In this document: in pieces, positions 3,427 through 57,693 of the stretch
How the letters are laid out: every line of letters begins with the position of its first letter
Numbering within the stretch: the first letter of the stretch is position 1
NCBI GenBank assembly: GCA_033875315.1
Contig: JANRJG010000038.1
Location: 124,001-188,000 of the forward strand
Length of the DNA: 64,000 nt
Source: Candidatus Methylacidiphilales bacterium
GTDB taxonomy: Bacteria > Verrucomicrobiota > Verrucomicrobiia > Methylacidiphilales > CAZTYG01
Reading direction: 5' to 3'
Notes under the pieces: model-generated
Database searches by the model: none
Told to the model about the DNA's origin: nothing
Seen by the model: only the letters and a program-made list of their open reading frames with translations
Position numbers and translations under genes: made by a program

Positions 3427-3604
3427 CTCACCGCGAAGAGCGCGAAGAACGCGATGTCATTCGGGTGTTGGCTGTTAAAGCTCCACGCACCGATCGGTCA
3501 GCCTGAATCCCTCCCCGATCCGTATCGGGGCAGGATGACTTCATTGCTATTTTTTGATCCGGTGTTTCTGCTTCGCGTTTGTCGCGCCCTTTGCGGTGAA
3601 AAGA
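3427..3604. repeat. inverted pair of 9-nt-period repeats (module 1)
   Basis: Left end 3427-3455 reads CTCACCGCGAAGAGCGCG followed by AAGAACGCGA; right end 3571-3604 reads CTTCGCGTTTGTCGCGCC followed by CTTTGCGGTGAAAAG. Each end is three 9-nt units, and the two ends are imperfect reverse complements with their GGTGAA-type tails pointing outward. The 115-bp interior holds CCCGATCCGTATCGGGG, itself a hairpin. The module fills the gap between the convergent nitroreductase and response-regulator genes. See the repeat finding for the other copies. Confidence 0.6.
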
Positions 3605-14144: not shown

Positions 14145-14314
14145 TGAACCACAGAGGACACAGTGAACACAGAGTTGAAAACAGGGTCTACAAAAGAGCG
14201 GCGAACAATCCCTACTGAGTGGACGCTCGATTCAACTTCATCGCATGCTGATCAAAAAGGATAACTACCCAACCCCTTTCTTCCTCTGTGCCCTCTGTGT
14301 CCTCTGTGGTAAAC
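14145..14314. repeat. inverted pair of 9-nt-period CACAGAG repeats (module 2)
   Basis: Left end 14145-14176 reads TGAACCACAGAGGACACAG then TGAACACAGAGTTG; right end 14282-14314 reads TCCTCTGTGCCCTCTGTG then TCCTCTGTGGTAAACC. Both ends consist of 9-nt units of the form NNCACAGAG (or its complement) and they are inverted relative to one another with tails pointing outward. About 100 bp of unrelated sequence lies between. The element fills the gap between the O-antigen ligase and ndk; the rest of the gap shows nothing else. Confidence 0.65.
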
Positions 14315-16289: not shown

Positions 16290-16322
16290 CTTGGCGAACT
16301 TCGGGTTCTTCGTGGTGAAAAT
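16290..16322. repeat. single 9-nt-period repeat copy downstream of gspD
   Basis: CTTGGCGAACTTCGGGTTC followed by TTCGTGGTGAAAAT: three 9-nt units (TTGGCGAAC, TTCGGGTTC, TTCGTGGTG) and the GGTGAAA tail. It has the same architecture as the inverted-pair modules but no partner is visible on the left. Confidence 0.5.
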
Positions 16323-53003: not shown

Positions 53004-53035
53004 CCTTTGCGTCCTTCGCGCTCTTCGCGGTTAAA
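53004..53035. repeat. single 9-nt-period repeat copy upstream of coaD
   Basis: CCTTTGCGTCCTTCGCGCTC followed by TTCGCGGTTAAAT: TTTGCGTCC, TTCGCGCTC, TTCGCGG and tail TTAAAT. It lies 13 bp before the coaD ATG, and its TTGCGT (53008-53013) and TTAAAT (53030-53035) are in promoter-like relation (16-nt spacer). No inverted partner is visible. Confidence 0.5.
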
Positions 53036-56268: not shown

Positions 56269-57582
56269 TCAGGCGGACGCCCGGCTGTCCAACAACCCCT
56301 CGATCATCCCGACCGTTTTGCGCAGGGCCCCGCTTTTGCGCTGGTACATCTCCCGCGCCTTGCAGCCCACGGCTTGGGCTTCCTGGGGATGGTCCAGCCA
56401 GCGACGCAAGATCTTCTCCAACCCGGCTTCATCCGGCACCTGTGCCAACCCGCCCCCGGCTTGGAACTCCTCCACCGCCGTGCGGAAGTTTTCCACCCGC
56501 GGCCCCACCACAACAGGCTTCCCGGCCTGCGCCGCTTCCAGAAAATTCTGGCATCCCTGGCCCTCGGGGGCGCGCAGGGTCTTGCCCACGAAGACCACCG
56601 TGGCCAGCCCGTAGGTCCGGCGCAATTCACCCGTGGTGTCCAGGATGAAGACATCCGCATGTTCACCCTCCGGCATCGCACCAGCCTCGGTGCGCAATCG
56701 CACTTTCCATCCGGCGGCGGTGATCAGTGGAACCAGCCCGGGAGTCCGCTCCACATGCCGCGGCACGAGGAGGAAGCGCAGGTCCGGATGATCTTTTTTC
56801 AGCGTGGCGTAAACCCGGAGAAGGATTTCCTCCTCGCCGGGGAACGTGCTACCGGCCATGAACACCGGATCGTCCTCCGACCAACCCGCCGCCGCACGCA
56901 GCTCCCCGGCCAACGAATCCCCACCCCCGCCATCGAGTTCATACTTGATGTTCCCGGTGATGAACAAGGCATGCGGCGGAAAACCGGCGGCGGCAAAACG
57001 GGTCCGGTCACGCTCATCCTGCACACACACCACATCCAGCAGCCCGAGGATGGGGCGGGTCCACCGGCGGACATATCGCAGTCGTTTTTCTGAGCGGATG
57101 GATAGTCGCCCGTTGATGAGCCAGACCGGGACCTTCCTTTTCCGGGCCTGCCAGAGGTGGTTGGGCCAGATTTCCTGTTCGACCAACACCAGGGCCGCGG
57201 GCCGGATATGGCGGAACGCCGAGGCAACCGCCGGGGCCAGGTCCACCGGGCTGTAAACCACCGCCGTGTGGGCGTCGGACGCACTCTCGGCCACCGCCCG
57301 GCCGGTCGACGTCGTCGTGCTCAGGACGATGTTCTGCCCGGGACGCCGCTCTCGCAACGCGCGCACCAAGGCCAGGGCAATCATCATCTCGCCGACACTG
57401 ACCGCATGGATCCAAAGCGGCGACTCCAACCGGGCCAAACGCTCGCGCACCGGTTGTCGGTAAATTCCCAGTCTTTGCGAAAAGTGACGCCGGAAATGCC
57501 CCCGGCGCAGCATGCGCAACAGGTAATACGGCCAACAGACCAGAAACAGCAGCGGGAAAAGCAGATTGTAGAAGATTTTCAA
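56269..57582 (-). CDS. waaA: 3-deoxy-D-manno-octulosonic acid (Kdo) transferase
   Basis: A glycosyltransferase that adds Kdo from CMP-Kdo to lipid A, marking an LPS-producing outer membrane. N-terminal membrane anchor (FYNLLFPLLFLVCWPYYLLR), LWIHAVSVGEMMIALALVRA with the catalytic Glu, VLSTTTSTGRAVAE, LINGRLSIRSEKRLRYVRRW and the C-terminal PVVVGPRVENFRTAVEEFQA are family motifs. The TTG at 57582 gives 437 residues, close to the 425 of E. coli. A longer frame (GTG at 57648) would put the dispersed 9-nt repeat inside the protein as FAFFAPFV, which is unlikely to be conserved. Confidence 0.9.
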   Translation of the reverse strand: MKIFYNLLFPLLFLVCWPYYLLRMLRRGHFRRHFSQRLGIYRQPVRERLARLESPLWIHAVSVGEMMIALALVRALRERRPGQNIVLSTTTSTGRAVAESASDAHTAVVYSPVDLAPAVASAFRHIRPAALVLVEQEIWPNHLWQARKRKVPVWLINGRLSIRSEKRLRYVRRWTRPILGLLDVVCVQDERDRTRFAAAGFPPHALFITGNIKYELDGGGGDSLAGELRAAAGWSEDDPVFMAGSTFPGEEEILLRVYATLKKDHPDLRFLLVPRHVERTPGLVPLITAAGWKVRLRTEAGAMPEGEHADVFILDTTGELRRTYGLATVVFVGKTLRAPEGQGCQNFLEAAQAGKPVVVGPRVENFRTAVEEFQAGGGLAQVPDEAGLEKILRRWLDHPQEAQAVGCKAREMYQRKSGALRKTVGMIEGLLDSRASA

Positions 57583-57693
57583 CACGAAGGGCGCGAAGAA
57601 CGCGAAGTTGGAAGCTTGGGGATTTGAGAGAGTAGTCTTCGTTGACACTCCAAATCAACCGCCTTTCTTCGCGACCTTCGTGTTCCTGAGGTG
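57576..57693. repeat. inverted pair of 9-nt-period repeats (module 3) at the waaA start
   Basis: Left end 57576-57610 reads TTTTCAACACGAAGGGCGCG then AAGAACGCGAAGTTG; right end 57664-57693 reads TTCTTCGCGACCTTCGTG then TTCCTGAGGTGA. Both consist of 9-nt units, face each other as inverted repeats and have their tails (TTGAAAA on the minus strand, GGTGA on the plus strand) outside. The module fills the gap between xerC and waaA. Confidence 0.55.

Follow-up and report, generated by a model that had tools for sequence, protein, structure and literature searches.

Intergenic modules with inverted three-unit ends in a Methylacidiphilales genome: probable non-autonomous members of a dispersed family linked to GxxExxY genes

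Short intergenic elements in which two inverted ends enclose an interior that varies are best known from the REPIN/RAYT system (Bertels and Rainey 2011, PMC3116915), in which a chromosomal gene is linked to the same ends and the elements have hairpin potential. Each REPIN end is one palindromic REP, and the RAYT is a Y1 HUH transposase. A second relevant system is formed by the intervening sequences (IVS) of 23S rRNA, such as the Coxiella IVS, which are called selfish elements; they are one-gene elements of ~450 bp with inverted ends in transcribed DNA, they carry a four-helix-bundle (S23) ORF, and RNase III excises them (PMC4990558). MITEs derived from DDE transposons are short gene-less elements having terminal inverted repeats and a gene-bearing partner, and the TAACTGA repeats of Beggiatoaceae, which are scattered over Cyanobacteria and Bacteroidetes as well, are intergenic tandem heptamers near start codons (PMC4679880).

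The modules described here resemble each of these systems in part. REPIN/RAYT is functionally the nearest, as the modules have all the features named above for it, but their ends consist of three direct short units instead of a palindromic REP and the linked enzyme is a predicted PD-(D/E)XK nuclease instead of a Y1 transposase, so that by its parts the family is not a member of that system. With the IVS the elements share size, inverted ends and position in transcribed DNA, and the genes of the IVS protein family in Bacteroides have the same tandem-unit end architecture; the GxxExxY elements, however, carry another protein, sit between protein genes and have ends without sign of selection for RNA pairing, and no four-helix-bundle (S23) ORF was found in the window modules. 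The likeness to MITEs extends to a gene-bearing partner (C38:19506-19957), whereas the ends are composites of tandem units, no target-site duplication was detected and no DDE transposase lies between them. The TAACTGA repeats differ in being direct arrays rather than paired inverted ends, with no linked gene known. We consider it probable that the modules belong, as non-autonomous members, to a dispersed family, that its gene-bearing member encodes a GxxExxY protein, and that dispersal depends on this protein.

The window, a stretch of 64,000 nucleotides (C38:124001-188000), belongs to a genome of 3.15 Mb in 42 contigs (G000). The original prediction placed three intergenic modules (3427-3604, 14145-14314 and 57576-57693) and two solo ends (16290-16322 and 53004-53035) in it, and all five were found where they had been placed (Table 1); both solo ends were also recovered by the model described below. 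The proposal that the three modules have the same build holds for the inverted ends, but module 3 has a degenerate outer unit on the right side and module 2 represents a second unit family, CACAGAG, within the genome. No Rfam family scored above threshold anywhere in the window.

Table 1. Positions and composition of the modules and solo ends in the window, and of the GxxExxY copies in the same genome
Feature	Position	Strand	Composition	Score
Module 1, left end	3427..3454	+	tail (C)TCACC; units CGCGAAG/CGCGAAG/CGCGATG; spacers AG, AA	30.5 bits, E 2.3e-8 (29-nt model)
Module 1, interior	3455..3570		palindromic segments also present in further modules of 150-180 bp in this genome; GxxExxY-like ORF absent	
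Module 1, right end	3571..3604	-	inverted; outward tail GGTGAA	24.2 bits
Module 2, left end	14145..14174	+	CACAGAG family; units CACAGAG/CACAGTG/CACAGAG; period 9	
Module 2, interior	14175..14283			
Module 2, right end	14284..14314	-	CACAGAG x3; outward tail GGTAAA	
Module 3, left end	57576..57607	+	TTTTCAACACGAAGGGCGCGAAGAACGCGAAG	
Module 3, interior	57608..57666		short class	
Module 3, right end	57667..57693	-	two good units, degenerate outer unit	13.9 bits
Solo end	16290..16322	-	three units and GGTGAAAA	24.2 bits
Solo end	53004..53035	-	three units and GGTTAA	30.6 bits
GxxExxY copy 1	G000:C38:19506-19957		CGCGAAG ends, period 9 (the window's type); inside atp operon	
GxxExxY copy 2			CGCNGAGG units, period 8	
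GxxExxY copy 3			CGCAAA units, period 9-10	
GxxExxY copy 4			CGCGAAA units, period 9-10	
GxxExxY copy 5			AACRGAG-type units	

In the window, a two-unit pattern gave 12 matches compared with 1.2 expected and the CACAGAG pattern gave 5 compared with 0.7; with at most one mismatch, the two-unit pattern matched the whole genome 138 times and its reversed-pattern control 6 times. A 29-nt sequence-only model built from 29 aligned ends recovers every window end. The genome-wide profile of ends that had been proposed as a check was made with this model, and orientation and spacing of the pairs were tabulated: 112 ends were found at E of 1 or less, and adjacent ends at most 600 bp apart formed 31 pairs, every one of them inward, where random placement gives 0.3 inward pairs. 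The paired inverted ends thus exceed what chance arrangement of solo copies would give. At E of 0.01 or less, 48 of 74 ends belong to an inward pair, and the paired modules measure 80-296 bp, apart from one of 452 bp.

The end had been described as three 9-nt units plus a tail. The tail and the number of units were right, while the unit is really a heptamer, CRCNRAG, and the remaining two bases are a near-random spacer: behind a tail of TTYACC or TTAACC come three heptamers separated by two free bases, and the information content, taken over 24 parsed modules, is 0.8-2.0 bits at heptamer positions and 0.2-0.6 bits in the spacers. Single ends, read from the sequence, are three direct heptamers and not imperfect palindromes of the REP kind. 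In modules with alignable interiors, identity was 0.86 for units, 0.74 for interiors and 0.46 for spacers, and although the detection of ends itself favors conserved units, the occurrence of intact units next to near-randomized spacers points to constraint acting on the units. That the two ends of a module are recent copies of each other was considered and rejected, since their spacer identity is 0.25 in this genome and 0.33 when partners are swapped between modules. The interiors, which had been called unrelated, are so only in part: module 1 falls in a subfamily of 150-180 bp with recognizably related interiors that contain palindromes and with an extra outer stem (AAGCCGG..ATGCAGTT), which a shorter class of 80-113 bp is without. 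As a separate observation, the second tail base (the N of T-N-ACC) is always A, C or T in the 29 aligned ends, and G does not occur; the outward reading is therefore GGTGA, GGTAA or GGTTA, and many copies place a stop codon at their border.

A family search of the genome found five PDDEXK_3/GxxExxY genes (PF13366/TIGR04256), the proteins of which score 93-148 bits, the NCBIfam curated cut-off being 35. By direct reading, all five lie between inverted three-unit ends, each with its own unit type (Table 1), and the copy that has the window's type is located between atpA and atpG, ~104 kb before the window start. The CACAGAG family of module 2 has several more copies in the genome, on contigs C3, C9, C14, C15, C25, C38 and C39; no GxxExxY gene with exactly CACAGAG units was found in this genome. 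One GxxExxY copy with CGCNGAGG units (L032:1390-2110, contig C8) stands amid further modules with the same ends, arranged head to tail. The protein is predicted to be a small PD-(D/E)XK nuclease. D72, E82 and K84, corresponding to the catalytic D and E-x-K, are invariant in 23 GxxExxY proteins, and the modeled structure (pLDDT 90) has the PD-(D/E)XK fold, with Cas4-like SSO0001 as the best structural match (Z 9.3, rmsd 6.0 over 112 residues) and Hjc and restriction enzymes as further matches (Z 5-8). A search by sequence for relatives of solved structure gave none that was convincing.

We then asked how general the association is, using 80 GxxExxY loci taken from named genomes of many phyla. 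When the upstream flank was compared with the reverse-complemented downstream flank at 78 loci, 68% scored at least 30, compared with 8.5% for flanks paired across different loci and 1.4% at other places within the same loci. Such a comparison favors similar flanks by its design, so the two sides were also scanned for ends independently of each other; these ends were inward on both sides in 44 of 75 loci and wrongly oriented on both sides in 7. The two ends of one element agree in unit spacing and sequence, whereas elements differ from one another; left and right spacing, which falls into the classes 8,8, 9,9, 8,9, 9,10 and 10,10, each common to both ends of an element, was equal in 40 of the 44 loci (shuffled mean 14.4, maximum 27 of 10,000). 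On the GxxExxY protein tree, spacing class requires 12 changes versus 18.8 when shuffled (minimum 14 of 300), and protein similarity correlates with end similarity (Mantel r 0.20, 0 of 2000), also with a linear effect of GC difference removed; common descent would also give both of these results. In the 30 loci of Bacteroides, both ends were found in 26 and wrong orientation in none, and spacing was equal in 22 of the 26.

Copies without the gene follow the local gene. Bacteroides sp. G035 contains 54 ends and Cerasicoccus frondis G034 contains 31, most of which match the ends of the local GxxExxY copy in spacing and unit, with 0 control matches; in G046, G114, G130 and G118, too, gene-less ends agree in period and unit with those around the local GxxExxY gene. 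Among 150 Bacteroides genomes, the mean number of three-unit ends was 21.9 in the 60 genomes with a GxxExxY gene and 1.9 in the 90 without, and at least 20 ends were found in 19 of the 60 and in 1 of the 90 (Fisher 5e-8), kinship being ignored in both comparisons. Exceptions are G072 and G081, which have 33 and 19 ends and no GxxExxY gene, and also G079 and G051, in which the dominant repeats differ from the ends of the GxxExxY copy examined.

Ends of this architecture are found around another protein too. The ORF carried by the IVS of 23S rRNA belongs to the TIGR02436 family, and prompted by locus L211 we tested 28 four-helix-bundle (TIGR02436) loci of Bacteroides; inverted tandem-unit ends scored at least 30 in 89% of them, compared with 5% when swapped and 0% elsewhere. 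In the loci L235-L264 these genes stand between inverted ends of three to four tandem units of 7-9 nt, and the units (AAGTTAAG, GATTTATG, AATTGACA, GAGCTACA and others) differ almost every time, matched from left to right. This suggests that the tandem-unit end architecture is more general than one enzyme. As the four-helix-bundle genes are by annotation not nucleases, the catalytic step of the class may be performed by something other than the nuclease, and the claim that the nuclease carries out the whole reaction is weakened. The shared architecture may also explain the origin of the 23S rRNA intervening sequences.

The presence of S23-family genes between the same kind of ends, together with the excision of the IVS by RNase III and the S23 ORF that they carry, favors an explanation at the RNA level, in which RNase III would cut out the stem formed by the ends, the insertion would be tolerated, and the protein would be a passenger or accessory. 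The strong hairpins formed by the modules (z -5.3 and -5.6) and the insertion within operons, between stop and start, agree with this. However, G-U-compatible differences on the sense strand are not in excess (66 versus 74 for GxxExxY and 28 versus 26 for the four-helix bundle), no G-U wobble asymmetry is seen in the left-right differences overall (96 versus 113), the spacers are free to mismatch, and the spread of copies is left unexplained. We consider this explanation unlikely.

Since no relative of the window's genome is nearer than order, occupied and empty sites were compared in Bacteroides. Here, orthologous sites proved to be occupied in some related genomes and empty in others, and the empty sites are stop-to-start gaps. 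At the mutA/mutB junction, many of the Bacteroides genomes examined have only the stop, 1-3 bases and the start, while four genomes have a GxxExxY element (L202-L205) and two others a gene-less module, which is of period 9 in G082 (L232) and short in G109 (L213). The same gap elsewhere contains a four-helix-bundle ORF with AAATCGT-type units or a solo end of the AAATCGT type, and in still other genomes ACAAG units or AAGAATKA units. This gap of 1-3 bases (L202-L233) has thus taken in several unrelated tandem-unit elements in different species. The junction of radA with the gene of an FAD-dependent protein is home to 19 of the 30 Bacteroides GxxExxY copies, mutA/mutB to 4, and most radA copies leave no more than a few bases of the space from stop to start unfilled. 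G046 (L295) has its element exactly where G081 (L298) has an 81-bp gap from stop to start, and the two are 97-98% identical on both sides, the G081 gap resembling that of G058. To judge from this alignment, the element looks as if it replaces the native gap rather than inserting into it, but exchange of the whole radA segment may have occurred, given that likeness between G046 and G081 is only ~80% elsewhere in the genome. Of the sites compared that hold a gene-less copy in G081, several lack it in G046, G058, G096 or G144, although two of six (L326 and L336) were uninformative and the relatives are only ~80% identical, which blurs the element boundaries so that they are not base-exact. No excess of direct repeats, as expected from target-site duplication, flanks 20 Bacteroides and 32 G000 modules. 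Selection may explain part of the stop-to-start placement, because insertions in genes get removed.

At the radA site, identity of the gene agrees poorly with that of the flanks (Spearman 0.27, compared with 0.80 between the flanks), indicating that element and host histories differ in part. This, with the concentration of copies at two junctions, the G046 element at the G081 gap and the absent target duplication, makes homing by gene conversion a live alternative for the gene-bearing copies: the nuclease would cut the empty stop-to-start gap, repair would copy the element from the homologous locus, and the gene-less modules would be relics. As an account of the whole family we hold it quite unlikely, because tens of gene-less copies at unrelated sites and the unit spacing common to both ends are not explained by it.

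The original prediction of a non-autonomous, REPIN-like family is sustained as to inward pairing, intergenic copies and presence or absence at orthologous Bacteroides sites, and fails as to membership in REPIN/RAYT. Mobilization by a RAYT, a Y1 tyrosine transposase, would fit the inverted pairs, intergenic position and hairpin potential, but single ends are not palindromic, and the RAYT gene that had been suggested to lie between the same ends was not found: the genome has only three weak Y1_Tnp matches, none between ends and one with a solo CACAGAG end ~1.4 kb away. We hold this explanation highly improbable. Equally improbable are intergenic sites that serve the host, as bidirectional terminators or for protein binding, and arose without mobility; these would account for the intergenic position and for units more conserved than spacers and interiors but not for similar interiors at unrelated sites, unit types that vary by genome and track the local GxxExxY, or presence and absence at orthologous sites.

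For the preferred reading of a GxxExxY-dependent family, in which we infer mobility from the presence/absence comparisons, the three phased units would be a composite recognition site for the GxxExxY nuclease or for a complex containing it. The nuclease might then act in trans on whatever DNA lies inside an inverted pair of such ends and promote the copying of that DNA into a new intergenic site. As for RAYT and REPIN, the coding copy would mostly stay at a fixed locus while short gene-less copies multiply. The scarcity of GxxExxY among mobile replicons (0 of 50,697 phage records and 8 of 72,556 plasmid records) is odd for a highly mobile gene and counts against this reading, as do the exceptions named above, the CACAGAG family of the window's genome with no GxxExxY copy of exactly its unit, and the fact that neither a transposition event nor an intermediate was observed. 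One Bacteroides finegoldii record named 'plasmid 50' (L234, NZ_OY725952.1) contains thrA, radA and the radA-site GxxExxY element, and therefore looks chromosomal. Only tentatively can the reading be extended to a general class of minimal mobile elements, with one small gene for a GxxExxY nuclease or four-helix-bundle protein and inverted ends of three to four phased units, which would spread into or replace the exact stop-to-start gaps of operons without target duplication, with the two ends of an element changing in unit sequence and spacing together with each other and with the protein, and with gene-less copies multiplying in trans.

In the literature covered, subscription journals and preprints excepted, we found nothing that ties the GxxExxY family (TIGR04256/PF13366, PDDEXK_3) to flanking repeats or mobility, and no bacterial literature containing the unit strings tried; PMC8934634 mentions GxxExxY only as a gene beside a reverse transcriptase. 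The family is apparently undescribed, a provisional judgment, and very widespread among bacteria. GxxExxY genes occur in many bacterial phyla under only a placeholder name, and the link with repeats gives them a testable role; it would also explain many unexplained intergenic repeats with units such as CACAGAG, CGCGAAG and CGCAAAG. Moreover, the natural pairs of protein and DNA-end variants, with spacing of 8, 9 or 10, could allow a recognition code to be deciphered.

Two smaller observations concern neighboring and sister copies. In G035, the flanks of L183, L186, L192, L193 and L198 show that units from other families (AAGTTTTTG, GAAGAATTA) often lie directly against CACAGAG elements, indicating that different families share insertion sites. 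In the sister genomes G051 and G161 (L270 and L274), one unit, in the left end only, has a block of two bases changed (CAGATT to CAGAGG), as if it had been converted from another copy.
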